From NCBI RefSeq assembly GCF_900148505.1, contig NZ_FRXO01000003.1, forward strand, positions 248,001 to 312,000: 64,000 bases of DNA, given 5' to 3'. Below, piece by piece: positions 1-14,628 of the stretch (positions within the stretch are counted from its first letter, which is position 1; every line of letters starts with the position of its first letter). The stretch is from Pseudoxanthobacter soli DSM 19599 (GTDB taxonomy: Bacteria; Pseudomonadota; Alphaproteobacteria; Rhizobiales; Segnochrobactraceae). Under the pieces are notes generated by a model. The model was not told where the DNA came from. It saw only the letters and a list, made by a program, of their open reading frames with translations, and did no database searches. The position numbers and the translations under genes were made by a program.

Positions 1-123
1 CGAAATCCGCGCGGCACGCAGGTTGGTACCGCCGATGTCGACCCCGATCGCGGCCGCTTCGTCCGGCCCGGCATCGGCGTCGAGGCGCCCGCCCAGCCGG
101 CCGTGATTCGCCCGTCTTGCCAT
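1..123 (-). CDS. ROK-family sugar kinase, N-terminal fragment (cut by window edge)
   Basis: Only the first 41 codons are present; the gene continues past the left edge. The ATG at 123 begins MARRANHGR, and after about 28 polar residues comes IGVDIGGTNLR, the DxGGT ATP-phosphate-binding signature of the ROK family (glucokinase, ManNAc kinase, fructokinase types). No winged helix precedes it, so a kinase is more likely than a NagC-type repressor. It lies 98 bp downstream of the aldolase gene on the same strand, which suggests one transcript encoding a sugar kinase and an aldolase. The substrate cannot be told from this fragment. Confidence 0.85.
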   Translation of the reverse strand, partial: MARRANHGRLGGRLDADAGPDEAAAIGVDIGGTNLRAARIS

Positions 124-221
124 GGTTTCCTCACCCGTCGCCGACCGGCGGTCGTTGCCGCCGGCCCGGACGCCGTCACGCAGCCTTTGTGTGACCAAGC
201 CTTTTCTGATGCGGCCTTTTC

Positions 222-1139
222 TTATGCAGCTTTGGCGTTCTCGCGGCGATAGCGTTCCAGAACAGCCTGGATTTCCCGCAGGCGCGGCACGGCCACGGCC
301 GCCAGCCGCTCCCGCGTCACGGCGCGGTCGAGCGAGATGCAGTCCTTCCAAAGCGCGCGGCCGGCGATCACGCCCGAGGCGCCGTTCGCCATCGCGGTTT
401 CCACCTGGCCGAGGAAGGTGGCGTGGTCGACGCCGGCCGACAGCACCGCCCACGGCACCTCGCCGGACAGCCGCGTGATGGCCGCGCAGGCCTCGGCCGT
501 GCCCGGATAGGGGATCTTCAGGACCTTGGCGCCGCATTCCAGCGAGATGCGGGTGCCCTCGATCACGAGGTTCGGCACCGCGGCGGCATAGTCCTCGGCG
601 CTTTCGCCATCGAGGCGGTAGGTCAGGAACTCGACGACGAGCAGCAGGTCCTCGCGGGCGAAGTCCTCGATGCAGCTCTTCAGGATCGCGATGTTGTGGG
701 CGTTCGCCTCGTCGGGGGCGTCGGGGCGCAGATAGACCATGATCTTGCCGCCGGTGCCGCCGAGCGCGCGCACGCGGCGGGCATCGATGCCCGGCACCAG
801 GCGCGAGAGGCGGTAGCCCGGCCCGGCGACGTCGAAGCCGGAGGCATCGAGGCCGATGATCAGGCCGACATCGCGGGCGAGCACGCCGTCATCGACCACC
901 CGCGGCACCGCGCAGACGGGATCGAGCAGCACGGCGGAAGCCTCGCTTGCGAGATAGGCGGCGATGTCGCACTTGGTGTCGCCGAGGATGTCCTCGCCGA
1001 TCTTCGCCTGCTCGGCGGGATCGGTGGCCAGAAGCTGGCGCATGCCGCCGCGCTGGTCGCAGGCGATGACCATCATCATGCCGTCGCGATTGCAGATTTG
1101 CTGGTAGCCGCGGAATTCCGCCGTCGTCATCTTGGCCAT
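222..1139 (-). CDS. Class I aldolase of the LacD/YihT (tagatose-bisphosphate / sulfofructose-phosphate aldolase) family
   Basis: A 305-residue TIM-barrel protein. LacD cleaves tagatose 1,6-bisphosphate to dihydroxyacetone phosphate and glyceraldehyde 3-phosphate; its paralogue YihT cleaves 6-deoxy-6-sulfofructose 1-phosphate. Visible family marks are CDQRGGMRQLL near residue 27, VLKIPYP near residue 208 with the presumed Schiff-base lysine K208, and the C-terminal block VPWAVLSAGVD...GASGVIAGRALW (residues 228-264), which closely follows LacD and YihT. It is transcribed away from the SorC regulator at 1305 and lies upstream of a ROK kinase. The substrate is not known: no partner genes of sulfoquinovose breakdown are nearby, so a phosphorylated ketohexose is the better guess. 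Confidence 0.8.
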   Translation of the reverse strand: MAKMTTAEFRGYQQICNRDGMMMVIACDQRGGMRQLLATDPAEQAKIGEDILGDTKCDIAAYLASEASAVLLDPVCAVPRVVDDGVLARDVGLIIGLDASGFDVAGPGYRLSRLVPGIDARRVRALGGTGGKIMVYLRPDAPDEANAHNIAILKSCIEDFAREDLLLVVEFLTYRLDGESAEDYAAAVPNLVIEGTRISLECGAKVLKIPYPGTAEACAAITRLSGEVPWAVLSAGVDHATFLGQVETAMANGASGVIAGRALWKDCISLDRAVTRERLAAVAVPRLREIQAVLERYRRENAKAA

Positions 1140-1268
1140 GGATCAAGTCCGGTGATGGGGCATCCCGCCCGTGCCGTGCAGCCTGCGGCGGCAGGGGAAG
1201 GGATGCCGGCGCGCGGCCCTGGCGGCGGCGCGAACGGTTTCGTTTGGCGAACGTCTTCCGCGTTCGTG

Positions 1269-1289
1269 AGAATGATGTAATATCATTCT
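1269..1289. promoter_or_regulatory. Palindromic operator candidate in the aldolase/SorC intergenic region
   Basis: A 21-bp imperfect palindrome with perfect 8-bp arms AGAATGAT and ATCATTCT around five bases. It ends 15 bp before the ATG of the SorC regulator, just in front of the AAAGGA ribosome binding site (1291-1296), and lies in the 165-bp region shared by two divergent genes. The AT-rich sequence stands out from its GC-rich surroundings. A second small inverted repeat, CGAACG/CGTTCG (1248-1253 and 1261-1266), adjoins it. Position and symmetry fit an autoregulatory SorC site; this is inference. Confidence 0.5.
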
Positions 1290-1304
1290 GAAAGGAATTG
1301 CAAC

Positions 1305-2273
1305 ATGCCTTCTTCCTCCGCCGGACCGGACGCGGGAAAGGCGGGCGTGGCCGAACCGGCCGCCTCGCGCACCCTGATCCACACGGTCGCCAAGCTGCAC
1401 TACGAGGCCGACCTGTCGCAGGTGGAGATCGCGCGCCGGCTCGGCGTGTCGGCGGCCACCATCTCGCGCCTTCTGAAGCGCGCGCGGGAGGACGGCATCG
1501 TGCGCATCGAGATCCGCGACGTCGTCGCCCCGGACGCGCTCGGCCGGATGATCGCCGAGCGGCTCGGGCTGAAGCGGGTCGCCGTGGTCGACGCGCCCGA
1601 CGCTGGCGGACTGGCGGCGCTCGCCGCGCCGGTCGGCGGCCTTCTGGCGGAGGCCGGCCTCGGGCAGGGCTCGGTCTTGGCGGTCGGCTGGGGGCGCACA
1701 CTCTGGGAGGTGCTGCAGGCCGGCCTGCCCCGGCTTCCCGGCATCGTCACCGTGGCGGCGATGGGCGGCATGCAGCAGCCCGCCCGGCACTTCCAGATCA
1801 ACGAGTTCGTGCGCCTCGCCGCCCAGGAGATGGGCGGCCAGCCGCGCTTCATCCACGCGCCCTACCTGCCGGCTGCCGAATCCCGCGCGGCCTTCCTGGA
1901 CGATCCCGGCATCCGCGACGTCGTCGGCCTGTGGGACCGGCTGGACGCGGCCCTGGTCGGCATCGGCCTGCCCCATGCGGTCGACCTCGCCCAGGGCGGC
2001 ACCGCCGGCACGCCGGAGGCGGACGAACTCGCCCATGCCGCCGGCGACGTGCTGCAGAACTTCTACGCGGCCGACGGCACGGCGATCTTCTGGCATGGCG
2101 CGCCGCGGCTGATCGCGGTTTCGCCCGACCAGTTCCGCCGCACCCCGCTGGTGGTGGGTGTCGCCGTCTCGCAGCAGAAGGTGCCGGCGATCATCGGCGC
2201 CGCGCGCGGCGGCTACATCAATGCCCTCGTCACCGACGCCCGCACCGCGGAAGCCGTGCTGGACGCGCTCTGA
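1305..2273 (+). CDS. SorC/DeoR-family sugar-responsive transcriptional regulator
   Basis: A 322-residue regulator. Residues about 35-62 (LSQVEIARRLGVSAATISRLLKRA) form the helix-turn-helix typical of the SorC family, and the remaining ~250 residues match the SorC sugar-binding domain (GWGRTLWEVL around 125, VVGVAVSQQKVPAIIGAARGG near the C terminus). Family members usually sense a phosphorylated sugar and control the adjacent operon. The start has an AAAGGA site 8 bp upstream. It is divergent from the aldolase-kinase transcript and convergent with the ROK kinase at 2299, so it probably controls the aldolase genes, itself and possibly the transporter operon. Confidence 0.88.
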   Translation: MPSSSAGPDAGKAGVAEPAASRTLIHTVAKLHYEADLSQVEIARRLGVSAATISRLLKRAREDGIVRIEIRDVVAPDALGRMIAERLGLKRVAVVDAPDAGGLAALAAPVGGLLAEAGLGQGSVLAVGWGRTLWEVLQAGLPRLPGIVTVAAMGGMQQPARHFQINEFVRLAAQEMGGQPRFIHAPYLPAAESRAAFLDDPGIRDVVGLWDRLDAALVGIGLPHAVDLAQGGTAGTPEADELAHAAGDVLQNFYAADGTAIFWHGAPRLIAVSPDQFRRTPLVVGVAVSQQKVPAIIGAARGGYINALVTDARTAEAVLDAL

Positions 2274-2298
2274 CATCGCCGCCCGGCCGCGCCGCGCC

Positions 2299-3240
2299 TC
2301 ACAACGCGAGCGCCGCCGCGCCGATCACCCCGACATCGAGGCCGAGCGCGCTCGGGCCCACCGGCACGTCGCGGAAGGCCGGCATGGCGCGCGCCGCGAT
2401 GGTGGCGCGGATCGGGCCGGCCAGAAGGTCGAGCCCGTTCGAAAGCCCGCCGCCGATCACCACCCGCTCCGGCGAGAACAGGTGCAGCAGGCTGACGATG
2501 CCGGCGCCGAGATAGCGGCCTTCCCGCCCGACGAGGGCGAGCGCGGTATCGTCGCCCTCCCGCGCCGCCGTCATGACATGACGCGCGGTGACCGGCTGTC
2601 CGGCGGCGATGCGGGCGATGGTGCCGCCGGGTTCGCGCGCGGCCGCGGCCCGGCCTGCCCGGTCGAGCGCCGAGCCGGAGGCGAGCGCCTCCCAGCACCC
2701 GGGATTGCCGCACGAGCACACCACGTCGCTGCCGGCCTCCACGATCATGTGGCCGACATGGGCGGCCATGCCGCGCCGTCCGCGCAGCAGGTGGCCATCG
2801 ACCACGATGCCGCCGCCGATGCCGGTGGAAACGGTGATGTAGACGAAGCTCGACAGTCCGCGTCCGGCGCCGAAGCGCCATTCGCCGAGCACGGCGGCAT
2901 GGCCGTCATTGTCGAGACGCACCGGAAGGCCGAGGCGCTCGGCGAGTAGGTCGCGCAGCGGCACGTCGTGCCAGCCGTGCAGCGTCGGCGGGCCGATCAC
3001 GATGCCGGCCTCGGCGTCGAGCGGACCCGGCGAGCCGACGCCGATCCCGACCGGGGTGACGCCCGGCACCGCGTCGCGGACGTCGGCGACGAGCGCCGCC
3101 ATCTGTTCGATCACGGCGGACGGCCCGCCGCAGGCGTCCGTCCGGGTCTGGGCGCGGGAGAGAATGCGCCCGGCCTCGTCCACCACGGCCGCGCGAAGCT
3201 CGGTGCCGCCGAGATCGATGCCGACGGCGGCCCGCGTCAC
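2299..3240 (-). CDS. ROK-family sugar kinase
   Basis: A full-length ROK protein of 313 residues starting at a GTG whose bases overlap the stop of the upstream epimerase (GTGA). It opens with AAVGIDLGGTELRAAV (ATP-phosphate loop), has the second ROK signature GTGIGGGIVVDGHLLRG and the zinc-binding cluster H...CSCGNPGCWEALASGSA, with no N-terminal DNA-binding domain. It should phosphorylate an imported hexose. It is the last gene of the long minus-strand operon. In E. coli the D-allose operon pairs a ROK kinase (AlsK) with an RPE-type epimerase (AlsE), the same two families found adjacent here; the real substrate is unproven. Confidence 0.9.
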   Translation of the reverse strand: MTRAAVGIDLGGTELRAAVVDEAGRILSRAQTRTDACGGPSAVIEQMAALVADVRDAVPGVTPVGIGVGSPGPLDAEAGIVIGPPTLHGWHDVPLRDLLAERLGLPVRLDNDGHAAVLGEWRFGAGRGLSSFVYITVSTGIGGGIVVDGHLLRGRRGMAAHVGHMIVEAGSDVVCSCGNPGCWEALASGSALDRAGRAAAAREPGGTIARIAAGQPVTARHVMTAAREGDDTALALVGREGRYLGAGIVSLLHLFSPERVVIGGGLSNGLDLLAGPIRATIAARAMPAFRDVPVGPSALGLDVGVIGAAALAL

Positions 3241-3962
3241 GAGACCGGCGCCTCCGGCGCGGGCAGGCCGTGAACCCAGGCGATGCGGTCGGCGAGATCG
3301 GGCGCGCCGAAGGCGAGCGAGCCCATCACCACCGTCTCGGCACCGGCGGCGCGCAGCAGGGGAACGGTGTGCTCGCGGATGCCGCCGTCGGCCGCCAGTA
3401 CGATCTCGCCGCCACGCCCGGCGTCGGCGATCAGCGCGCGCGCTTCCTGCAGCCGGGCGGTGGCGGCCGGATCGAGCCCCTGGCCCTTCACGCCGATGGC
3501 GGTGCCGAGCAGGGTGAGGAAACCGACGCGGCCGAGATAGGGCGCGACGCCCGCGACCGGGGTGTCGACCTTCAGCACGATGCCGGCCATCAGGCCGAGC
3601 TCGGCGATGAGCGCCAGCGCCTCGTCGATCACGGTCTCGTTCTCGAGGTGGATCGAGATGATGTCGGCACCGGCGTCCGCGAACTGGCGGATCTGCTCGA
3701 TCAGCACCTCGTCCTTCACCATCAGGTGCACATGCAGCGGCCGGTCGGTCGCCTGCCGCATCCGCGCGACCTGGTCGGGGAAGAACAGCAGCGCCGGCGC
3801 GAAGTGACCGTCGGCGACATCGATGTGATAGATGTCCGCGACCGCGCGGGTGCGGTCGAGATCGTCGGCGAGACGCAAAAGATCGGCCGACCACATCGAG
3901 AACTCGGCGAGGAGCCGCTCCTTCTGCAGCCCCGACAGGCGGGCGGAGACGGTGGGATTCAT
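3237..3962 (-). CDS. Ribulose-phosphate 3-epimerase / D-allulose-6-phosphate 3-epimerase family protein
   Basis: A 241-residue TIM-barrel epimerase. The metal ligands and acid-base residues of the family are all visible: H46 and D48 in YHIDVADGHF, H79 in LHVHLMV and D192 in LAADGGI. It is longer than housekeeping Rpe by about 15-20 residues and diverges in the FAPALLFFPDQV segment that lines the substrate pocket, so a specialised epimerase (AlsE-like) is more likely than the pentose-pathway enzyme. It starts 5 bp after the hydrolase gene and its stop overlaps the ROK kinase start, so the three are translationally coupled. Confidence 0.82.
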   Translation of the reverse strand: MNPTVSARLSGLQKERLLAEFSMWSADLLRLADDLDRTRAVADIYHIDVADGHFAPALLFFPDQVARMRQATDRPLHVHLMVKDEVLIEQIRQFADAGADIISIHLENETVIDEALALIAELGLMAGIVLKVDTPVAGVAPYLGRVGFLTLLGTAIGVKGQGLDPAATARLQEARALIADAGRGGEIVLAADGGIREHTVPLLRAAGAETVVMGSLAFGAPDLADRIAWVHGLPAPEAPVS

Positions 3963-3967
3963 CGGGA

Positions 3968-4837
3968 TCAGGTTCCGTTGTTGCTGGAAGCGGGCGTTGC
4001 GCCGGATGAGCGGCCGGCCGGAAGCGCGGTGACGAACGCCTCGAACGCGCGGCCGAATTCGGCGAGATAGCGGGCCTTGTCGATGCCCTTCGGCGTGATC
4101 CGCGCAAGCCGCGCGCCCGGAATGAGGGCGGCGAGGCGCTCGGCATGGCCGAACGGATGCACCACGTCGAGATCGTGGCCGATGACGAGCGCCGGCACCG
4201 CGATCGAGGCGATCTCCTCATCGGAAATCCCCGGCCCGTCGAGCGAGATCGCGGTCAGGAGCGCCGACGTGACCGCGACCGGCTCGCGGGAGAAGAAGCC
4301 GTCGAGCGAGGCGAGGTTGTCGGGCGCCTCCGTGGCGAGGCGCCGGGCGAGCGGCGAGGCCTCGAACAGCGCGCGGGCCTCCCCTGGCGGATGCGCGGCG
4401 AGGAGGCGGCCGACCGCGAGATTCGGCGCCATGTTGTCCGGCGCGGAAGCCGACACCCACGCCGGCCGCATCAGCACCAGCGCGGACACGAGATCGGGCC
4501 GCCGCACCGCGAGCCGCGAGGCGATGGCCGCGCCCATCGAGACGCCGCCGAGGATCGCGCCGCGGATCGACAGCGCGTCGAGCGCCGCGGCAAGGTCGTC
4601 GGCGAAGGTGGCGATCGAGAACGCCGCCGGATCGCCGGCCTCCGAGCCGCCGTGGCCGCGGCATTCGAGGGTCAGCCTCCGCAGGCCGAGGCGCGCGGCG
4701 AGATCGGCCGGAACGAGTTCCGCGATCTGCCCCTCGGCGCCGCAGAGGCCGTGCTGCATCACCACCGCCGGACCGTCGCCGCCGCTGTCGTGGAGCTTCA
4801 GCGCCAGCCCGTCGCGGTGGAAGACGCGCGCGGTCAC
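3968..4837 (-). CDS. Alpha/beta-fold hydrolase
   Basis: A 289-residue serine hydrolase. The nucleophile elbow is ILGGVSMGAA (Ser in G-V-S-M-G), preceded by the oxyanion-loop motif VVMQHGLCGAEG and followed by the C-terminal acid/His region (VIGHDLDVVHPFGHAERLA). It starts with GTG overlapping the stop of the upstream isomerase (GTGA). The fold covers lactonases, esterases and haloperoxidases; a sugar lactonase or deacylase acting between the dehydrogenase and the isomerase would suit the operon, but nothing in the sequence fixes the substrate. Confidence 0.8.
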   Translation of the reverse strand: MTARVFHRDGLALKLHDSGGDGPAVVMQHGLCGAEGQIAELVPADLAARLGLRRLTLECRGHGGSEAGDPAAFSIATFADDLAAALDALSIRGAILGGVSMGAAIASRLAVRRPDLVSALVLMRPAWVSASAPDNMAPNLAVGRLLAAHPPGEARALFEASPLARRLATEAPDNLASLDGFFSREPVAVTSALLTAISLDGPGISDEEIASIAVPALVIGHDLDVVHPFGHAERLAALIPGARLARITPKGIDKARYLAEFGRAFEAFVTALPAGRSSGATPASSNNGT

Positions 4838-5664
4838 GATGCGGCCCCCAGCGCCCGGCGCAGGAACGCCGCGACACCCGCCGCCTCGCCGGCTTCGAGG
4901 CCGTGGGTGACGAGCGGCCCATCGAAGCCGGCGGCCTTCAGCCGGCGGAGATAGAACGGATAATCGAGCACGCCTGTGCCGGCGGTGGCGAAGGCGCCGT
5001 CGGCCGTGCGGTCCTTGGCGTGGCCCATGGAGATGCGGTCGGCGAGAAGGTCGATGGCCTCCGCCACCACGCGGTGCTGCTCGGCGAGCGGCGCGGCCTC
5101 GAACAGGTTGGCCGGATCGAGCACGATGCGCAGCCGCTTCGAGCCGGTCTCGTCGATCAGCCGGCGCGCCTTAGCCGCCGAATTGACGACGTTGGCGAGT
5201 TCCGGCTCGATGCCGAGATCGATGCCGTGGGCCTCGGCGATCGCCGCGGCCTTGTCCATTTCGGCGCGCAGGTCCGCCCAGGCATCGGGGGCGTCGTTGC
5301 CGGGGTGGGCGCGCCACTGGTCGTCCGGATCGCGGGTGCCGGTGCACAGCGTGACGAGCGGCGCGCCCAGCGCGGCGCAGGACGCCGCGAGCACCGCGAG
5401 CCGGGCGAGGCCCCGGGCGCGGACCGCCGGATCGGGATGGATCATGTTGTAGGTGCCGGAGACGGCACAGAGGCCGACGCCCTCCGCCCGCGCCGCCGCG
5501 GCGACGGAGGCGGCGACGGCGGGATCGATGGCGTCGGGCATCGCCGGCAGACCGAGGCAGGCCATGTTGAACTGGGTCGTCTCGTAGCCCGCGTGGCGCA
5601 CGGCCGCGAGCACCGTCGCGGCATCCGTCCCGGGAAAGGTCTTGGCGAAGATGCCGAGCCGCAT
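4834..5664 (-). CDS. TIM-barrel sugar (phosphate) isomerase/epimerase, AP-endonuclease-2 family
   Basis: A 276-residue protein starting MRLGIFAKTF at an ATG that overlaps the stop of the MocA gene (ATGA) with GGGAGGG just upstream. The layout is that of xylose-isomerase-like TIM barrels (IolE, hydroxypyruvate isomerase, 3-epimerases): LVTLCTGTRDP mid-protein, then metal-ligand stretches GIDLGIEPELANV, LRIVLDPANLF and ISMGHAKDRT. It sits immediately after a Gfo/Idh/MocA dehydrogenase, a common pairing in oxidised-sugar catabolism. Likely activity is isomerisation or epimerisation of a keto-sugar intermediate; the substrate is unknown. Confidence 0.8.
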   Translation of the reverse strand: MRLGIFAKTFPGTDAATVLAAVRHAGYETTQFNMACLGLPAMPDAIDPAVAASVAAAARAEGVGLCAVSGTYNMIHPDPAVRARGLARLAVLAASCAALGAPLVTLCTGTRDPDDQWRAHPGNDAPDAWADLRAEMDKAAAIAEAHGIDLGIEPELANVVNSAAKARRLIDETGSKRLRIVLDPANLFEAAPLAEQHRVVAEAIDLLADRISMGHAKDRTADGAFATAGTGVLDYPFYLRRLKAAGFDGPLVTHGLEAGEAAGVAAFLRRALGAAS

Positions 5665-6740
5665 CAGAGCCCTCCCGTCACGTCCGCGAGCCGCACCGGC
5701 CGGCCGCTTTCCGCCGAGCGGGCGATGGCGACCATCGCCCGCACGCTGGCGATGCCGTCGTCGATGTCGGCGCCGCGCATCGGCGCGCCGTCGAGGATGA
5801 CGGAGGCGAAGCCCTCCACCTGGCGGCGGTAGAAGTGGCCGTCGGCGCCGAGAACCCGGCGCGAGGCGCCCTCGCGCTCGTCGAAGATGTCGACCTCGCT
5901 GGTCTTGAAGTACCAGGGGTTGAACGTCTTGCCGATGATGCTGCCGAACTCGCCGTAGATCTGGAAGCCTTCGTGCCAGTCCATGCGCACGGCCACCGTG
6001 AGGTCGAGATGGCCGAGGGTTCCATTGGCGAACGTCACGTCGACGAACCAGCAATAGGCGCCGTAGCGCTCGCTGAGGCGGGCGGAGACATCGACGATGT
6101 CGCCGCCGAAATAGCGGGCGGTATCGATCAGGTGGCAGCCGTGGGCGAGCATGAAATAGCGTCGCTTGTCGGCCTTGGGGTCCCCGGCCGGCTTGCGGAC
6201 GCGGGCGCTCGTCACCATCAGCGGCTGCACCGCGTCGGTCATGGGATAGCGGTGGGTGGAATCGCAGTACCACGCCTTGAGGGCCATCATCTGGCCCATG
6301 CCGTCGTCGATGAATGCCTTCGCGGCTTCGAGGCCGGGATCGAACCGCTTCATGTGGCCGACCTGCAGCACCTTGCCGGAGGCGGCGACGGCCTGCTTCA
6401 GCGCCTCGACCTCCTCCACCGTCACGCCGAGAGGCTTCTCGCACAGCACATGCTTGCCGGCTTCGAGCGCCCGGACCGCGGCCGGAACGTGGAAGGCGTC
6501 GGAGGTGGCGACGATCACCGCCTCGACGTCGGGATCGGCCAGCATGGCGTCATAGTCGGCATAGCTGCGTTCGGGCGCGTGGGTGGCCGCCATCCGCTCG
6601 CGAAGGTCGTCGGCCACGTCGCAGATCGCATAGAGATCGGCGTTTGCGGCCTTGGTGCAGCTTTCGAAATGGGCTGCCTGGGCGATCGGCCCGCAACCGA
6701 GCACCCCGACCCGCAAGCGGCGATCCTGTTTCCTGGGCAT
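5664..6740 (-). CDS. Gfo/Idh/MocA-family NAD(P)-dependent oxidoreductase
   Basis: A 358-residue dehydrogenase. The N-terminal Rossmann fold shows VGVLGCGPIAQAAH (residues 11-24), then the family mark C-EKP (E101-K102-P103) in HVLCEKPLGVT, followed by VGHMKRFDPG. The C-terminal half is the usual alpha/beta substrate domain. Members oxidise or reduce a ring hydroxyl of inositols, hexoses or glycosides. It starts after AAGGTGAG and begins a five-gene run with overlapping junctions; the ATPase gene ends 121 bp upstream, so it is probably cotranscribed with the transporter. Confidence 0.88.
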   Translation of the reverse strand: MPRKQDRRLRVGVLGCGPIAQAAHFESCTKAANADLYAICDVADDLRERMAATHAPERSYADYDAMLADPDVEAVIVATSDAFHVPAAVRALEAGKHVLCEKPLGVTVEEVEALKQAVAASGKVLQVGHMKRFDPGLEAAKAFIDDGMGQMMALKAWYCDSTHRYPMTDAVQPLMVTSARVRKPAGDPKADKRRYFMLAHGCHLIDTARYFGGDIVDVSARLSERYGAYCWFVDVTFANGTLGHLDLTVAVRMDWHEGFQIYGEFGSIIGKTFNPWYFKTSEVDIFDEREGASRRVLGADGHFYRRQVEGFASVILDGAPMRGADIDDGIASVRAMVAIARSAESGRPVRLADVTGGL

Positions 6741-6861
6741 GTCTCACCTTCGATTGGTCACGGCTCCGCGGGCGCGCGGTTGCGCGGCGCCGGAAGAGAG
6801 GGCGCGGCACCCGGTCTGGAAGCAGGTGCCGCGCGGTCGGCAGCGCCGAGGAGAGGGCGCC

Positions 6862-7659
6862 TCAGCCGCCGACCATGAGCTTGACGACCTCGTCGTGGTT
6901 GGTGTCCTCGATTCGCCGCTCACCGGCAAGCGCGCCGCGCCGCATCACCACGATCCGGTCGGACACCGCGAAGATGTCCTGAAGGTTGTGGGAGATGAAG
7001 ATGATGGCGCGGCCCTGGGCCTTCAGCGTCTTGATGAGCGAGACCACCTTGCGCTGCTCGGGCACGCCGAGCGCGGCGGTCGGCTCGTCCATGATGAGGA
7101 CGCGGGCGTTCCAGTAGATCGCCCGGCCGATGGCGACCGCCTGCCGCTGGCCGCCGGAGAAGCGGCCGACGGGGGCGTCGAGCCGGTTCACATGGAAATC
7201 CAGCATCGCCATGGTTTCCTGCGCGGCCTTCGCCATCGCGCCCCGGTCGAGCACGGGGAACAGGCCGAGCACCTTCTTCACCGGCTCGCGGCCGAGGAAG
7301 ATGTTGGCGCCGATGGAGAGATTATCGGCGAGCGCGAGGTCCTGGTAGATCGTCTCGATGCCGTGGGCGCGGGCGGCTTCCGGGGTGGCGAAGCTCACCC
7401 GCTCGCCGGCGAACAGGATCTCGCCCTCGTCGGCCTGATGCACGCCCGAGATCGTCTTGATCAGGGTCGATTTGCCCGCGCCGTTGTCGCCGGCGAGCGC
7501 GACGACCTCGCCGGGATAGAGCTGGAGCGAGATGCCCTTCAGCGCTTCCACGCCGCCGAAGCGCTTGTAGACCGAGCGCACGTCGAGGATGGGCTGGGCA
7601 CCGGCGCCGACGGCGGCGTGGCTGGCCGCGCGAGAGGCGGTCTGGGTCTGGACGGACAT
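6862..7659 (-). CDS. Sugar ABC transporter ATP-binding protein (FrcA type)
   Basis: A 265-residue single nucleotide-binding domain: Walker A GDNGAGKST, Q-loop IYQDLALADNLS, signature FSGGQRQ, Walker B VLIMDEPTAALGV and H-loop ISHN. E. coli-type RbsA/AlsA/XylG carry two tandem domains (about 500 residues); the single-domain form with ALGV after Walker B is that of the rhizobial fructose transporter subunit FrcA. The ATG overlaps the permease stop (ATGA). Together with 7659-8720 and 9152-10138 it makes a complete importer, working at the inner membrane. Confidence 0.92.
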   Translation of the reverse strand: MSVQTQTASRAASHAAVGAGAQPILDVRSVYKRFGGVEALKGISLQLYPGEVVALAGDNGAGKSTLIKTISGVHQADEGEILFAGERVSFATPEAARAHGIETIYQDLALADNLSIGANIFLGREPVKKVLGLFPVLDRGAMAKAAQETMAMLDFHVNRLDAPVGRFSGGQRQAVAIGRAIYWNARVLIMDEPTAALGVPEQRKVVSLIKTLKAQGRAIIFISHNLQDIFAVSDRIVVMRRGALAGERRIEDTNHDEVVKLMVGG

Positions 7660-8720
7660 CAGTGCTTCTCCCCGCCGAGCCTGCGCTGGGTCTGGTCGAC
7701 CAGCACGGAGATGACGATCACGGTGCCGACGGCGATGAACTGCCAGAACGGCTCCACATTGATGAAGACGAGGCCGTACTGGATGACGGCGATGACGAGG
7801 GCGCCCGCGACCGTGCCGAGAATGGTGCCGGAGCCGCCGAACAGGCTGGCCCCGCCGATCACGACGGCGGCGATGGAGTCGAGCAGCAGCGGTTCGCCCG
7901 CCTGGGCGGCGCCGGCGGTGAAGCGCGCCGCATAGAGCACGCCGCCGAGGCCGGCGCAGGCCGCCGACAGGAGATAGAGCTTGCGGATGTGGCGGCTGAC
8001 ATTGATGCCGGCCCGCAGTGCCGCCTGCTCGCTCGCGCCGATGGCGTAGGTATGCTGGCCGAAGCGGGTCTGCGACAGCAGGTAGTGCATCAGCAGCACG
8101 AACAGCACAGTGACGATCACGATCACCGGCACGCCGAGGAAGCGGCCGTTGCCGAGGGCGGCGAACCAGGAATTGGACACCGGAACCGTGGTGCCGCCGG
8201 CGATGAGGAACGCCGCGCCGCGGGCCACGCCGTACATGCCGAGCGTGCCGATGAACGGCGGCACCCGGAGCCGGGAGATCAGCATGCCGTTGATCCAGCC
8301 GGGCACGAGCGCGACGGCGAGGCCAACCAGGATGCCGACGAGCATCGCCGGGAACGGCGGCAGGAAGCCGCCGGCGACGTTGGTGGCGTGAGCGGCCGCC
8401 ACGGCCGAAAGGCCCATGATGAAGCCGATCGACAGGTCGATGCCGCCGGAGATGATGACGAAGGTGGAGCCCAGCGCGAGCAGCAGCGGCGCGACGGCGA
8501 AGATGCCGATCGATTGCGCGTTGTAGGCCGAGAACAGAAAGGTCGAGCCATAGCTGACCTGCGCCCACACCTCGAAGAAGACGATGAGGATGGCCAGGAA
8601 CAGCCACGCTCGGGCGGCGGCGAGCGCGAGCAGGAAATTGCTCGGGCCGGATTTGGTGCCGTGCTTGCTGCCGTGCTTGGGTGCGGCCGTGCGCACTTCC
8701 GGGGTCGATTGGGCGGACAT
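7659..8720 (-). CDS. Sugar ABC transporter permease (RbsC/FrcC type)
   Basis: A 353-residue inner-membrane permease of the branched-chain amino acid/ribose type. The hallmark ALGSTFVIISGGIDLSIG and the late GGASLFGGSGTILGTV loop are clear, with about nine to ten hydrophobic segments between. I chose the ATG at 8720 (MSAQSTPEV), with GGAGAGG upstream, over one 43 codons further out that has a basic, unconserved lead. The polar N terminus (residues 1-25, HGSKHGTK) is cytoplasmic. It is followed directly by the ATPase gene. Confidence 0.92.
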   Translation of the reverse strand: MSAQSTPEVRTAAPKHGSKHGTKSGPSNFLLALAAARAWLFLAILIVFFEVWAQVSYGSTFLFSAYNAQSIGIFAVAPLLLALGSTFVIISGGIDLSIGFIMGLSAVAAAHATNVAGGFLPPFPAMLVGILVGLAVALVPGWINGMLISRLRVPPFIGTLGMYGVARGAAFLIAGGTTVPVSNSWFAALGNGRFLGVPVIVIVTVLFVLLMHYLLSQTRFGQHTYAIGASEQAALRAGINVSRHIRKLYLLSAACAGLGGVLYAARFTAGAAQAGEPLLLDSIAAVVIGGASLFGGSGTILGTVAGALVIAVIQYGLVFINVEPFWQFIAVGTVIVISVLVDQTQRRLGGEKH

Positions 8721-9151
8721 GCGCCTCTCCGTGCCGTTCAGGGTCCGGTGCCGCGGGCGATGGTCGCCGCCCGTGGCCGCGGGCTCGCATTGAAAACTAG
8801 AGCGGGATCGCGGTTTCGCGCCCGGCGATCGCGGGCCTGGTCGGGGCATCCGGCCGTGAGGGGGCGGCGGGCGTCTCGCGCGGGCCGCCAGACCACTTCC
8901 TGTTCAGCCCGCTACCGGTTCATCCCGCAGCCGGCTCATGCCGCACCGGCCGGCAACCGCCGCCGATGCCCTCACCCGCGCCTTCGCAGCGGGGCCGTCG
9001 CACCGGAACCCGGCTCCTGCCGTTCGATCCGGTCGGGGAAGCGGCGGCTCCCGCGGGGGCTGCCGCTTCCGGTGTCGTGTCGTCCGGTCCGGAACCGGGC
9101 GGTGGCGGGCGTTCGTCACGCGCCTCCGCCCGGACCGGCAGGGGCGGTCGC
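8721..9151. other. 431-bp spacer between sugar-binding protein and permease genes
   Basis: No convincing gene. Just after the binding-protein stop there is an inverted repeat CCGCCC/GGGCGG (9126-9147, 10-base loop). Hairpins in this position are common in binding-protein transport operons, where they protect the upstream message and lower expression of the membrane components. The rest is GC-rich with several CCGG-containing short inverted repeats but nothing I can name. Confidence 0.4.
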
Positions 9152-10138
9152 TCAGTCCGAGTAGACGAACTTGGCGATGTCCGGATTGTCGATGTTCGAC
9201 TTGTCCATCACGGTGAAGCCGGTGCCGATCGCGGTCGGGATCGACTGGCCGGTGAGGTGGGCATAGGCCGACATCACGCCGTAGTAGCCGATCTCGGCCG
9301 GGTGCTGGGCGATGGCGATATCGACCAGGCCGTTCTTGATGTTGTCGACGATCGAGGTCGGCGCGTCGAAGGCGACGACCTTCACCTTGCCGGACTGGCC
9401 GGCCTGCTGCACGCCGTTAGCGGCGCCCAGCGCGGAGAAGAGGTTGGCGCCGAACACGCCGACGAGGTCGGAATTGCGCGCCACCACGGACTGGAGCTGC
9501 GAGGCCGCCTTGTTGGCGTCGTTGTCGTTGAACTGCGTCTCCAGCACCGTGATGTTCGGATAGTTCTTCATCTCCTCCTTGAAGCCCTGCTCCCGCTGGT
9601 CGGTGGTGGAGATGCCGGGCTTCACGTTGGAAACGTAGACCTTGCCCTTCTCGCCCACCGCCTTGGCGAGCGCGCGGGCCGCCATGCGGCCGCCGAGCAC
9701 GTTGTCGGAGGCGATGTAGGAGAGCGGGAAGTCCGCGTCGCCCTTGCCGGTCTGGTAGACGCCGTCGCCGATGAAGGTGTCGACGGTGATCACCGGGATG
9801 CCGGCCTCGGCCGCCTTCTTCAGCGGCTGGACGAGCTGGGTCTTGTCGGTCGGCGCGATCAGGATCGCGTCCGGCTTGCGGGCGATCACGGCATCGAGCA
9901 CCGGGACCTGGAGAACGGGGTTGAAGTCCGGCGCGCCCTGGAACACGAGCTCGGCACCGACCGCCTTCGCGGCGGCCTCGGCGCCCTTGCGCATGGTGAT
10001 GTAGAACGCGTCCGTCGTCAGGCCCGGGATCAGGGCGATGGTGAACTTCTTGCCGTCCTGCGCCTGGGCGGAGCCCGCACCGGCAAGAACGCTGACACCC
10101 ACCGCAAGCGCTGCCAGGGCGGTAATGATCTTCTTCAT
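9152..10138 (-). CDS. Periplasmic sugar-binding protein of ABC transporter (RbsB/FrcB type)
   Basis: A 328-residue type I periplasmic binding protein (peripla_BP_4). Residues 1-26 are a signal peptide (MKKIITALAALAVGVSVLAG, cleavage after SAQA). The mature protein starts with KFTIALIPGLTTDAFYITM and has the expected DAILIAPTDKTQL, GIPVITVDT, YIASDN and VVAFDAPTSIVDNIK segments of the two lobes and hinge. It is the promoter-proximal gene of the transporter operon, behind a good promoter at 10407-10435. The ligand should be a neutral monosaccharide or polyol; which one cannot be read off. Confidence 0.92.
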   Translation of the reverse strand: MKKIITALAALAVGVSVLAGAGSAQAQDGKKFTIALIPGLTTDAFYITMRKGAEAAAKAVGAELVFQGAPDFNPVLQVPVLDAVIARKPDAILIAPTDKTQLVQPLKKAAEAGIPVITVDTFIGDGVYQTGKGDADFPLSYIASDNVLGGRMAARALAKAVGEKGKVYVSNVKPGISTTDQREQGFKEEMKNYPNITVLETQFNDNDANKAASQLQSVVARNSDLVGVFGANLFSALGAANGVQQAGQSGKVKVVAFDAPTSIVDNIKNGLVDIAIAQHPAEIGYYGVMSAYAHLTGQSIPTAIGTGFTVMDKSNIDNPDIAKFVYSD

Positions 10139-10485
10139 GACGTTTCCTCGTTCACGGTTTTTGCTTTTTTGTACGCACGCGACATCGGCACGGCCGGCAT
10201 GAGGGGCCGGTTCGCGAAGCCGAACGGACGAAAGACGGTCGAGACCGACCCGCCGCTGTCCGGAAGAAGTGTCGTCGAAAGGAGCCGCGATGGCCGTGAT
10301 CGGCCCCTTGTTCGCCCGCGTGGGCGGACGGCTGGCGGGGCGTTTCGCGATCCTGCCGGGTCACCCGGTCGCGGATCATTTCCTCCTGTTGTTTTTTATG
10401 GACAGAAACCTAGAGGCCCGATGTGTGCGCGTCAATCCAATATTTGACGTGCGCCAAGTTTTGCGCGGCATTTTCCGGGAGGAGT
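10139..10485. other. 347-bp regulatory region upstream of the sugar-binding protein gene
   Basis: No gene. It contains the promoter at 10407-10435 and an overlapping inverted repeat (10426-10453), and a long leader of about 260 bases before the binding-protein ATG. The leader holds no recognisable riboswitch. A short T-rich stretch (10388-10399) lies directly downstream of the -10 element. Confidence 0.5.
10407..10435 (-). promoter_or_regulatory. Sigma-70-type promoter of the sugar ABC operon
   Basis: On the minus strand TTGACG is followed after exactly 17 bases by TAGGTT. An inverted repeat with arms TGCGCGTCAA (10426-10435) and TTGACGTGCG (10444-10453), 8 of 10 bases symmetric, overlaps the -35 element and is a likely repressor site. 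The promoter of the SDR-GMC pair (13188-13216) has the same TTGACGCG -35 region and spacing. Confidence 0.6.
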
Positions 10486-12180
10486 TCAGGTAGCCATACG
10501 GCGCACCAGATCGGCGCCCTTCTCGGCGATGCAGTAGGTCGCGGCCATGGTGTTGCCGGAGACGATCGCCGGCATCACCGAGGCGTCGATCACCCGCAAT
10601 CCCTCCATGCCGTGCACGCGCAGCGACGACGGATCGACCACCGCCATGTCGCCGGTGCCCATGCTGCAGGTTCCGACCGGATGGTAGAGCGTGCCGCAGC
10701 GCTGGCGGATATAGGCTTCCAGCGCGCCGTCGCTGTCGGCCTCCGGCCCCGGCGTCACCTCGCCGGCGAGATGCGGCTCGAACGCCTTCTGGGCGATCAG
10801 CCTGCGGACGAGTTTCATGCCCTCGCGCAGCGACTCCATCGTGCTGTCGCCGCGGAAGAAGTCGTAACGGATCGACGGCCGCTCATGCGGGTCGGCGCTC
10901 GCCAGCGTCAGCCTGCCGATGCTGCCGGGGCGCAGCTCGCAGACATGGACGAGGAAGCCATGCCCGAACAGCGAGCCGGCATTCTGGGCGTTGCCGACCG
11001 AGGTGCAGAAGAACAGCTGGATGTCCGGCCGGTCGAGATCGGGACGCGTGCGCACGAACGCCCCACCCTCGCCGGTGGTGGAGGCGAACAGACCCCGGCG
11101 GCCGAACAGCCACTTGAAGACATGGGCGACATTGGCGGGCAGCGCCTTCCACGACAAGCCATAGGGCACCGTCGTCTTCGCCTTGTACTCCATGGTCACG
11201 TCGATGTGGTCCTGGAGATTGGCGCCCACCCCCGGCAGGTCGTTGAGGACCTCGATGCCGTGGCGGGCGAGATCGCGGCCGTTGCCGATGCCCGACAGCA
11301 TCAGAAGCTGCGGCGAGACGAACGCCCCGGCCGAGAGGATGATTTCGCCGCCGCGGGTTTCGCCGCGCACGGCCGCGTCGCCCTCGCCCGCTTCCCACGC
11401 GACGCCGACGGCGCGCCGCCCCTCGGTGAGGATGCGCGTCACCCGGCGCCCGGGCAAGATCGCGAGGTTCGGGCGGTGGCGGACCGGATCGAGATAGGCC
11501 CGCTCGGCGCTCTGCCGCTCGCCGCCCTTCTGGGTGAAGGTGTAGTAGCCGAAGCCTTCCTGCCGGGCGCCGTTGAAATCGGCGTTGTAGGCGTGGCCGG
11601 CCTGCCGCGCGGCTTCGAGGAACACGTCGCACATCGGGTTGACGGAGCGCAGCTGCGCGACGTTCACCGGCCCGCCGGTGCCGTGAAAAGCGGGGTCGAT
11701 CTGTTCGGAGACGGGCCGTCCGCCGAGGCGGATGTGGCGGCTGCCGGCCGGATCGGCCAGCGCCTCGAAGGTCTCCAGCCGCCGGAAATAGGGCAGGAGA
11801 TCGTCATAGCCCCAGCCGGGATTGCCGAGGTCGCGCCAGTGGTCGTAGTCCTCCCGCTGGCCGCGGATGAAGATCATGCCGTTGACCGTCGTGCTGCCGC
11901 CGGTGGCCTTGCCGCGCGGCAGCATCACCTTGCGGCCCTGCAGCCCCGGTTCCGGCTCGGTCTCGAACCACGACATGAATTTCGGACCGCCGAGGAAATC
12001 GACCGCCGGCATCATGAACGTGACCATGCCGAGCGGCATCTTCACGATGGTCCTGCCGCTGTTGCGGTCGGTGCCGGGCTCGATCAGCGCCACGCGCACC
12101 TTGGGATCCTCGGACAGCCGGCTGGCGAGCACGGACCCCGCCGCGCCCGCCCCGACGATCACGTAATCGAACCGTTCCAT
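10486..12180 (-). CDS. GMC-family FAD-dependent oxidoreductase (choline dehydrogenase-like)
   Basis: A 564-residue flavoprotein. The N terminus has the dinucleotide-binding motif FDYVIVGAGAAGSVLASRL, GMC signature 1 is PRGKATGGSTTVNGMIFIRG, signature 2 lies around GAFVSPQLLMLSGIG, and the C terminus has YHPVGTCSMG and the catalytic-region ASVMPAIVSGNTMAATY. Members oxidise primary or secondary alcohols (choline, polyols, sugars). It starts 34 bp after an SDR gene on the same strand and should share its promoter at 13188-13216. In this sugar-catabolic setting a polyol or sugar dehydrogenase is likelier than choline oxidation, and no betB or betI neighbours are present. Confidence 0.88.
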   Translation of the reverse strand: MERFDYVIVGAGAAGSVLASRLSEDPKVRVALIEPGTDRNSGRTIVKMPLGMVTFMMPAVDFLGGPKFMSWFETEPEPGLQGRKVMLPRGKATGGSTTVNGMIFIRGQREDYDHWRDLGNPGWGYDDLLPYFRRLETFEALADPAGSRHIRLGGRPVSEQIDPAFHGTGGPVNVAQLRSVNPMCDVFLEAARQAGHAYNADFNGARQEGFGYYTFTQKGGERQSAERAYLDPVRHRPNLAILPGRRVTRILTEGRRAVGVAWEAGEGDAAVRGETRGGEIILSAGAFVSPQLLMLSGIGNGRDLARHGIEVLNDLPGVGANLQDHIDVTMEYKAKTTVPYGLSWKALPANVAHVFKWLFGRRGLFASTTGEGGAFVRTRPDLDRPDIQLFFCTSVGNAQNAGSLFGHGFLVHVCELRPGSIGRLTLASADPHERPSIRYDFFRGDSTMESLREGMKLVRRLIAQKAFEPHLAGEVTPGPEADSDGALEAYIRQRCGTLYHPVGTCSMGTGDMAVVDPSSLRVHGMEGLRVIDASVMPAIVSGNTMAATYCIAEKGADLVRRMAT

Positions 12181-12214: not shown

Positions 12215-12961
12215 TCAGATGTCCTGGTTCTGCGGCAGGATGACGAGATCGCGGATGGTGACGTTGGCCGGCCGCGTCAGCATGAAGATGACGGCGTCGG
12301 CGACGTCTTCCGAGCGCAGCCCCTCGCGCGCGGCGACCTTGGCCTCGATGGCGGCGGGGTCGGTGAAACCCCACAATTCGTTCAGCACCACCCCCGGCGC
12401 CACCGCGCCGACGCGCACGCCGTGGGGCGCGGCCTGCCGGCGCACGCCGTGGACGAACGCCTGCACCGCGTGCTTGGTGGCGCTGTAGACCGGCTCCCAC
12501 GGAATGGCCTGATGGCCGGAAACCGAGCTGGTGACGACGATATCGCCGCTGCCGCGCGCCATCATGCCGGGCAGCACGGCCCGGACGCTGCGGAACACGC
12601 CGTTGACGTTGATCGCCACCACGGAATCCATCGCGTCGGGATCGGCCTCGGCCACGTCGCCCGGCAGGTAGAGGCCGGCATTGGCGAGGAGGATGTCGAT
12701 ACGGCCGAACCGGGCGAGGGTCTCGCCCACCACGCGCTCCACCTCCGCGCCCTCGCCGAGATCGGACGGCAGCACCAGGGTGTCCTCGGCGCCGACGGCG
12801 TCCGCCACCGCGGCGAGCCTCTCGGCGGAGCGGGCAGCGAGCGCAAGCGAGGCCCCTTCGGCCGCAAGCGCCCGGGCGAGAGCGCGGCCGATGCCGGAGC
12901 TTGCCCCGGTGACCAGCGCCACCTTGCCCTGAAGCCGGCCACCCGGATTGAATGCGCTCAT
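12215..12961 (-). CDS. Short-chain dehydrogenase/reductase
   Basis: A 248-residue classical SDR. TGASSGIGRAL (residues 18-28) is the cofactor glycine motif, NAGLY follows beta-4, and the catalytic set is S in VVTSSVSG with Y-x3-K in YSATKHAV. The acidic/basic pattern after beta-2 (AARSAERL) suggests NADP is possible. The ATG at 12961 has GGGAGG upstream. It is the first gene of an SDR-GMC pair divergent from the LacI regulator, so it probably oxidises or reduces a sugar or polyol under that regulator's control. Confidence 0.87.
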   Translation of the reverse strand: MSAFNPGGRLQGKVALVTGASSGIGRALARALAAEGASLALAARSAERLAAVADAVGAEDTLVLPSDLGEGAEVERVVGETLARFGRIDILLANAGLYLPGDVAEADPDAMDSVVAINVNGVFRSVRAVLPGMMARGSGDIVVTSSVSGHQAIPWEPVYSATKHAVQAFVHGVRRQAAPHGVRVGAVAPGVVLNELWGFTDPAAIEAKVAAREGLRSEDVADAVIFMLTRPANVTIRDLVILPQNQDI

Positions 12962-13566: not shown

Positions 13567-14628
13567 ATGAAGAAGCCTGAAAGAGCGCGAATGGCCGACC
13601 ACAAGATCAAGAACATGGCGGAGTTCTCGCAGCTCAGCGGCATCTCCCGCCCGACGGTCTCGAAATATTTCAACGATCCCGCGAGCGTGCGCAAATCCAC
13701 CCGCGAGCAGATCGAGCAGGCGCTGTCGAAATACGACTACCGACCGAACCTGTTCGCCGTGAACCTCAACAAGAAGCGGCCGCGCATCATCGGCGTCATC
13801 GTGCCGGACACGTCGGACACGTTCTTCTCCGAGCTGGTGCGCTGCATCGAAGCGCGCTGCATGGCGAACGGCTATCTGGTGATCGTGCTGTCCTCGCGCG
13901 GCGACCCGGAGCTCGAGGGGCGCTCCATCGAGATGCTGCTGTCGCTGAAGATCGCCGGGGCGATCGTCGCCCCGCTCGGGGCGGATTCCGATCGCGGCCT
14001 GATCGAGAGCCTGAGGGCGCGCATTCCCATCGTGTTCCTCGATTCCCGCCTCGACGACCGCACCCCGTTCGTCGGCACCGACAATTTCCAGAGCATGCCG
14101 CTCATCACCGAATATCTCTGCCGCACCGGCACGCCGCCGACCTATTTCGACATGCCGGCGATCAACAACAACGCCGCCGAGCGCAAGCTCGCTTATCTCC
14201 AGACCATGACGCGCCTCGGCTTCCAGCCGGAGGTCGTCAGCGTCACCGATGCCCGCGACTGGCGGTTCGAGGATGTCGGCTTCACCGAGGCGCAGCGGGT
14301 GCTCGACGGCCCGGGCTTCGCCACGACGACGGTGCTGTGCGCCAACGACCGCATCGCCACCGGCGTGATGGCGGCCTGCTACCAGCGCGGCCTGCGCATC
14401 GGCCGCGAACCCGGCTGCGACCTGCGCATCGCCGGCCACGACGACCAGCCGCTCAGCCGCTACGGCTGCCCGCCGCTCACCACCGTCGCCCAGAACTTCG
14501 ATCAGCTCGGCAGCCACTGCATCGATCTCCTGATGGAGGGCATCGAGAGCGAGGAAGACGGCCCGGCGACTGCGCCGGTGCGCCAGATCCGGCTCGGCGC
14601 CACGCTGATGATGCGCGCCTCGGCCTGA
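13567..14628 (+). CDS. LacI-family transcriptional regulator
   Basis: A 353-residue repressor. The helix-turn-helix and hinge are NMAEFSQLSGISRPTVSKYF and YRPNLFAVNL, followed by a periplasmic-binding-like effector domain starting PRIIGVIVPDTSDTFFSELV. Two starts are possible: ATG at 13567 (MKKPERARMADHK) with GAGG about 9 bp upstream, and ATG at 13591 (MADHKIKN) with AAGAG; I give the longer. It is divergent from the SDR-GMC pair and upstream of the PfkB and GatZ genes in the same direction, so it probably regulates both sides in response to a sugar, plausibly tagatose or a polyol. Confidence 0.9.
   Translation: MKKPERARMADHKIKNMAEFSQLSGISRPTVSKYFNDPASVRKSTREQIEQALSKYDYRPNLFAVNLNKKRPRIIGVIVPDTSDTFFSELVRCIEARCMANGYLVIVLSSRGDPELEGRSIEMLLSLKIAGAIVAPLGADSDRGLIESLRARIPIVFLDSRLDDRTPFVGTDNFQSMPLITEYLCRTGTPPTYFDMPAINNNAAERKLAYLQTMTRLGFQPEVVSVTDARDWRFEDVGFTEAQRVLDGPGFATTTVLCANDRIATGVMAACYQRGLRIGREPGCDLRIAGHDDQPLSRYGCPPLTTVAQNFDQLGSHCIDLLMEGIESEEDGPATAPVRQIRLGATLMMRASA

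Follow-up and report, generated by a model that had tools for sequence, protein, structure and literature searches.

A conserved five-enzyme sugar module beside a CUT2 importer in Pseudoxanthobacter soli DSM 19599

Several described systems resemble parts of a sugar locus in Pseudoxanthobacter soli DSM 19599. The Escherichia coli als operon (alsBACEK with rpiB) shares with it a CUT2 importer and adjacent genes for a Ribul_P_3_epim-family epimerase and a ROK kinase. The E. coli ycjNOPQRS(T) cluster of the 3-keto-glucoside/guloside pathway shares a MocA-family dehydrogenase and an AP_endonuc_2 TIM-barrel enzyme beside a sugar ABC importer. The Agrobacterium tumefaciens O-glycoside beta-elimination operon (GlycDH/AtOGE/AtHYD, PMC10628242) and levoglucosan operon share a sugar oxidoreductase with sugar-isomerase-type TIM-barrel metalloenzymes. 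The iol pathway shares an IolG-like MocA fold and, weakly, an IolE-like TIM-barrel fold. A CUT2 binding protein of A. vitis (PDB 5dkv) is 81% identical to that of the locus over the whole mature protein.

The locus lies at the left end of a 64,000-nucleotide stretch of contig NZ_FRXO01000003.1 (the window, positions 1–64,000; negative coordinates denote bases to its left). It is composed of two separable modules. Module A comprises a CUT2 importer and genes for LacI, SDR, GMC, SorC, an aldolase and a second ROK kinase (ROK2). Module B encodes a MocA-family dehydrogenase, a TIM-barrel enzyme, an alpha/beta-hydrolase, an Rpe-like epimerase and a ROK kinase (ROK1). Gene content, order, coupling, conservation, module independence, co-occurrence and active-site signatures were established by the analysis. 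Tentatively, and at a little under an even chance, the two modules are joined here for the use of a rare hexose, likeliest a D-tagatose-type ketohexose or keto-sugar. Literature searches (5DKV, this gene combination, tagatose operons in rhizobia) returned nothing describing the gene set. The protein families of this conserved module are recognised ones, but the literature searched assigns it no reaction, and the combined reaction of the five enzymes likewise appears to be unassigned there.

Conservation of module B and its link to module A

A search seeded with the module B epimerase yielded 80 loci, mainly from Hyphomicrobiales and Rhodobacterales. Many of these stretches end at contig ends, and gene counts refer to the stretch only. 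Genes for the MocA dehydrogenase, TIM-barrel enzyme, hydrolase and epimerase occur together in 66 of the 80, and 57 also hold ROK1. The order MocA-TIM-hydrolase-epimerase-ROK is kept in most of these independent loci, so the set is not due to chance. The initial annotation had proposed looking for the same genes in other Hyphomicrobiales, and this co-conservation was found. In a genome of the same family (G045, locus L109), gene order is identical to that in P. soli: LacI / SDR-GMC-binding protein-permease-ATPase-MocA-TIM-hydrolase-epimerase-ROK1 / SorC / aldolase-ROK2. Besides Hyphomicrobiales and Rhodobacterales, a small number of other genomes have module B, rhizobial plasmids being a frequent location, and existing annotation gives its genes superfamily names only. 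Phylum- and class-wide genome samples place the TIM-barrel family almost entirely within the order. With module B assigned, some of the use of rare sugars by plant-associated bacteria would be accounted for.

Module B adjoins at least three kinds of importer. Rhizobium and Shinella loci have a CUT1 importer with a class I aldolase, a PfkB kinase and a DeoR regulator. In Agrobacterium loci the importer is of CUT1 type and its binding protein is glucose-type, nearest to chain 4r2b (537 bits), whose ligand we take to be glucose. Plasmid loci of S. meliloti and Mesorhizobium have a CUT2 importer with a ROK regulator, the epimerase gene being absent in both, and a Paraburkholderia locus has an arabinose-type CUT2 set. 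The CUT2 importer of P. soli stands beside module B in 8 of the 72 loci holding MocA. A shortened module (MocA, TIM-barrel enzyme and hydrolase, with or without an adjacent kinase and with no epimerase) occurs with other importers at L130:6402-14713 (S. meliloti Ak57 pSymB), L132 and L129. The importer with LacI, SDR, SorC, aldolase and ROK2 genes lies away from module B in many genomes. Module A was found with no module B nearby at L110, L116, L117, L120 and L123–L126, and module B without module A was also seen. The modules are separable because each occurs without the other and the importer partner of module B varies.

A second MocA and an IolE-like second TIM-barrel enzyme adjoin module B in 24 of the 72 loci. 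At rhizobial loci L086:3280-9308, L131, L133 and L134, they are accompanied by an HSL-type esterase, and L086 and L134 additionally hold a class I aldolase, a PfkB kinase and a DeoR regulator. These extra genes suggest a larger glycoside or cyclitol pathway. The second set was considered as a duplicate of module B and rejected; it is a different, accessory set, because the esterase has no BLAST match to the module B hydrolase and the TIM-barrel enzyme is IolE-like.

Co-occurrence of the modules was counted in 398 genomes of the order, with at least 80% identity defining a close orthologue of the binding protein. The module B epimerase is present in 44 of the 398 and a close binding protein in 20. 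All 20 of the latter, from nine genera, carry the epimerase (Fisher p 7e-22, a value inflated by kinship of the genomes). The genus-level count is also strong: 9/9 genera with a close binding protein have the epimerase, against 12/141 (p 5e-12). Binding protein and epimerase genes lie on the same contig within 6 kb in 5 of the 20 genomes and are unlinked in 14; the contigs of the remaining one (G310) are too short to tell.

Enzymes of module B and described families

The initial annotation had read the genes as a single operon for unusual-sugar use and had seen an oxidation-isomerisation module absent from E. coli als, and this is supported. It had also named the epimerase and ROK kinase as the AlsE/AlsK pair of D-allose breakdown, which the family models contradict. 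The epimerase scored 101.7 bits with the AlsE model (cut-off 271) and 148.6 with the Rpe model TIGR01163 (cut-off 212.6). ROK1 and ROK2 scored 103.4 and 127.2 bits with the AlsK model (cut-off 253), far too low for AlsK, and both lie closer to the ROK glucokinase family. In direct comparisons the epimerase is 32% identical to AlsE and 35% to Rpe, and the kinases are 25–32% identical to AlsK. The loop GTAIGVKGQ, largely conserved in a 106-sequence family, replaces SVNPGFGGQ of Rpe and TVDPGFAGQ of AlsE. Metal-site and phosphate motifs are retained. Of the three active-site methionines of Rpe enzymes, this epimerase has lost two. AlsE was rejected on its low score, the higher Rpe score and the loop and methionine changes. 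Housekeeping Rpe was rejected on the sub-threshold score and the presence of a true Rpe elsewhere in the genome (277.5 bits).

A variant D-allose/D-allulose pathway would use the importer, a ROK kinase and an AlsE-like epimerase to take D-allulose through its 6-phosphate to fructose 6-phosphate, with the other genes accessory. The locus has the same superfamilies as AlsB/A/C, AlsE and AlsK, and its permease and binding protein are 28–31% identical to AlsC and AlsB. However, the Als cut-offs are widely missed, including those of the importer equivalogs (AlsB 103.2 vs 335, AlsA 205.7 vs 772, AlsC 162.4 vs 396), and the importer ATPase has one ABC domain where that of als has two. No gene assigned between -875 and 14628, the range in which RpiB was sought, encodes an RpiB-type allose-6-phosphate isomerase. 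The locus adds the MocA dehydrogenase, TIM-barrel enzyme, hydrolase, aldolase and second kinase to the als set, and the invariant first three would be left unexplained. The allose variant is improbable.

The best PDB chain for the MocA dehydrogenase is DgpA, and it aligns over its full length to the glucoside 3-dehydrogenase YcjS. The TIM-barrel enzyme has the AP_endonuc_2 fold and family signature (PF01261, 121 bits). Its AlphaFold model (predicted local distance difference test score 96) has as nearest folds UlaE, L-ribulose, D-tagatose and D-allulose 3-epimerases and the 3-keto-glucoside 4-epimerase YcjR (Foldseek probability 1.00; template modelling score about 0.67–0.80), at 14–21% identity. 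A phmmer search of PDB sequences gave no matching chain. Profile alignment places E154, D184 and H216 at metal ligands of UlaE and YcjR. H255 takes the place of the fourth ligand, a Glu on beta8 (UlaE E251, YcjR E240), and is invariant in 26 aligned sequences, so the enzyme does not have the Glu-Asp-His-Glu site of ketose 3-epimerases. A plain ketose 3-epimerase is unlikely because in those enzymes two residues transfer protons and the replaced Glu is one of them, and this assignment was rejected on the altered ligands. An AtOGE-type eliminase was also rejected, because AtOGE uses His/Asp/His/Glu (PMC10628242) in place of E/D/H/H.

The main alternative is that module B is a general salvage route for 3-keto-sugars. 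Here, 3-keto-hexoses from 3-oxidised glycosides or elimination products would be returned to hexose, with MocA as reductase and the TIM-barrel enzyme as hydratase or epimerase, then phosphorylated by ROK1, and the importer would vary with the source sugar. It draws on YcjR among the nearest TIM-barrel structures, the MocA alignments to YcjS and DgpA, the parallel A. tumefaciens O-glycoside operon, the glucose-binding-like partner importer and the second MocA and IolE-like enzyme at other loci. The TIM-barrel ligand set matches neither that of AtOGE nor that of YcjR (E/D/H/E), however, and no glycosidase or eliminase lies beside module B at this locus. The CUT2 importer resembles monosaccharide importers. 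The phosphosugar epimerase would have no clear role after 3-keto-glucose unless an allose or allulose phosphate were made; it and the kinase are additions relative to the A. tumefaciens operons. Compared with ycj, the locus adds hydrolase, epimerase and kinase, has neither a YcjQ-type zinc dehydrogenase nor a GH65 phosphorylase, and shows identities of 24–30%. We consider general salvage unlikely, but a serious competitor.

The hydrolase has an otherwise ordinary fold, with C-C bond hydrolases and enol-lactonase(s) as nearest structures. Ser100 (nucleophile) and Asp224 (acid) are invariant, as in serine hydrolases. Alpha/beta-hydrolases carry their catalytic His in the loop after beta8, whereas this loop (247–253, TPKGIDK) has none. 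K250 in the same loop and H227 in the Asp loop are both invariant.

A variant cyclitol (inositol-like) pathway could also be drawn, in which MocA would form a keto-cyclitol, the TIM-barrel enzyme dehydrate or isomerise it, the hydrolase open the ring at a C-C bond, and the kinase and aldolase finish. IolG and IolE are the best family models for MocA and the TIM-barrel enzyme, C-C bond hydrolases and an enol-lactonase are among the hydrolase neighbours, and the best PDB match of the aldolase is a DUF2090 protein. IolG and IolE themselves were rejected, with scores far below cut-off (126.9 vs 355 and 23.6 vs 290). The objection that these enzymes might be inositol orthologues did not hold: the locus is not the inositol pathway, because canonical IolG and IolE are encoded on another contig. 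The phosphosugar epimerase and glucokinase-like ROK kinase fit a cyclitol poorly, and the closest match of the binding protein is 5dkv rather than an inositol binder. This variant has little probability.

Module B might form a route not described before, a proposal we regard as evenly poised. In it, the MocA dehydrogenase, the TIM-barrel enzyme with His substituted in its metal site and the hydrolase lacking the canonical catalytic His would together act on a keto-sugar, followed by phosphorylation and a new type of phosphosugar epimerisation. Assigning module B would also offer a model in which to examine an alpha/beta-hydrolase that lacks the usual catalytic His and a sugar-epimerase-fold enzyme with an altered metal site.

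Importer, substrate and proposed route

The binding protein is a direct handle on the substrate. Its identity to 5dkv extends across 303 residues and marks it as an orthologue of that D-tagatose-type binding protein, with which it almost certainly shares a ligand class, judging from this alignment. We take 5dkv to be A. vitis Avi_5339 solved with alpha-D-tagatopyranose. The LacD-type aldolase, SorC and polyol-type dehydrogenases in one cassette are compatible with a ketohexose or hexitol. The aldolase is single-copy in the genome, with 8tnf (DUF2090) and YihT as best PDB chains. LacD tagatose-1,6-bisphosphate aldolase was rejected (TIGR01232, 66.7 vs cut-off 432); the nearest subfamily is PRK12858 (164.3 vs 184). 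Aldolase and ROK2 genes had been noted as flanking the operon, and both are present. They form part of a distinct cassette, linked to SorC, which accompanies the importer and may be located away from module B.

We infer the pathway itself, with every reaction and its substrate, along the following lines. The CUT2 system would import the sugar under LacI and SorC regulation, and the SDR and GMC dehydrogenases could feed polyols into the pathway. After import, MocA would oxidise one of the sugar's secondary hydroxyls. The TIM-barrel metalloenzyme, holding the substrate via the new carbonyl, might then shift or invert the neighbouring carbon, by analogy with YcjS/YcjR on 3-keto-glucosides. The hydrolase could act on a lactone or C-C bond of the keto-sugar intermediate. 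ROK1 would phosphorylate the product, and the Rpe-like enzyme would epimerise the phosphosugar towards central metabolism. In a parallel branch, ROK2 could phosphorylate a ketose for cleavage to triose phosphates by the LacD-type aldolase.

Several observations weigh against this proposal. Genomes with binding proteins at 67–73% identity have module B in only 2 of 11 cases, so the link between the modules is limited to close orthologues. Module B also lies beside a CUT1 importer with a glucose-binding-like binding protein and beside other importers, and a ketohexose is therefore not required as its substrate. Some loci have no Rpe-like gene or no adjacent kinase. The 5dkv entry text reads only 'substrate binding protein (Ribose)' and names no ligand, so D-tagatose is a lead.

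Locus layout and candidate operators

All genes listed in the initial annotation are present in the families and order given on the minus strand, with ROK2 (L005:13125-14126, window -875 to 126) mostly left of the window and only its first ~126 bases inside. That annotation had confined the system to 1–10138 and overlooked the SorC, GMC, SDR and LacI genes; the extent should be drawn at about -875 to 14628 (Table 1). The enzyme genes from MocA to ROK1, including the overlapping epimerase and ROK1 genes, are very probably one transcript because they overlap by 4 bp or sit 5 bp apart.

Table 1. Features of the locus in window coordinates
Feature	Position	Strand	Remarks
ROK2 kinase, 5' part	1..126	-	ROK family; 127.2 bits with the AlsK equivalog model (cut-off 253)
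LacD/YihT-type class I aldolase (DeoC/LacD family)	222..1139	-	PF01791; PRK12858 164.3 bits vs cut-off 184
Candidate SorC operator, perfect palindrome AGAATGAT-N5-ATCATTCT	1269..1289		Between sorC and aldolase
SorC-type regulator (sugar-binding domain)	1305..2273	+	PF04198, 135.8 bits
ROK1 sugar kinase, glucokinase-like, module B	2299..3240	-	PF00480; TIGR00744 224.8 bits vs cut-off 260
Rpe/AlsE-family phosphosugar epimerase, third type, module B	3237..3962	-	Below Rpe and AlsE cut-offs
Alpha/beta-hydrolase, module B	3968..4837	-	Ser100 and Asp224; no His at canonical post-beta8 site
AP_endonuc_2 TIM-barrel metalloenzyme, module B	4834..5667	-	E154/D184/H216/H255
GFO/IDH/MocA NAD(P)-dependent sugar dehydrogenase, module B	5664..6740	-	126.9 bits with the IolG model (cut-off 355)
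CUT2 importer ATPase, single ABC domain	6862..7662	-	
CUT2 importer permease	7659..8720	-	PF02653
Sugar-binding protein	9152..10138	-	81% identical to PDB 5dkv
Candidate LacI operator, palindrome CGTCAA-N8-TTGACG	10430..10449		Upstream of importer
GMC (FAD) oxidoreductase	10486..12180	-	Same locus in relatives
SDR dehydrogenase	12215..12961	-	Same locus in relatives
LacI/RbsR-type regulator, divergent from SDR	13573..14628	+	Belongs to locus in relatives

The palindrome between sorC and the aldolase gene (AGAATGATGTAATATCATTCT, 8-nt arms) has no other site in the genome even when up to 2 mismatches are allowed. A check of relatives did not recover it upstream of their aldolase gene, so it is only a candidate SorC operator. 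The candidate LacI operator is the sole exact genome site of its palindrome, and near matches are roughly twice as numerous as in the control. In L109 (7478) and L114 (11755), the core of this palindrome is again present upstream of the binding protein gene. Left of the locus, genes for an allantoinase PuuE and a GhrA-like hydroxyacid reductase (L005:10399-12380) mark what seems to be a purine-catabolism region unrelated to it.

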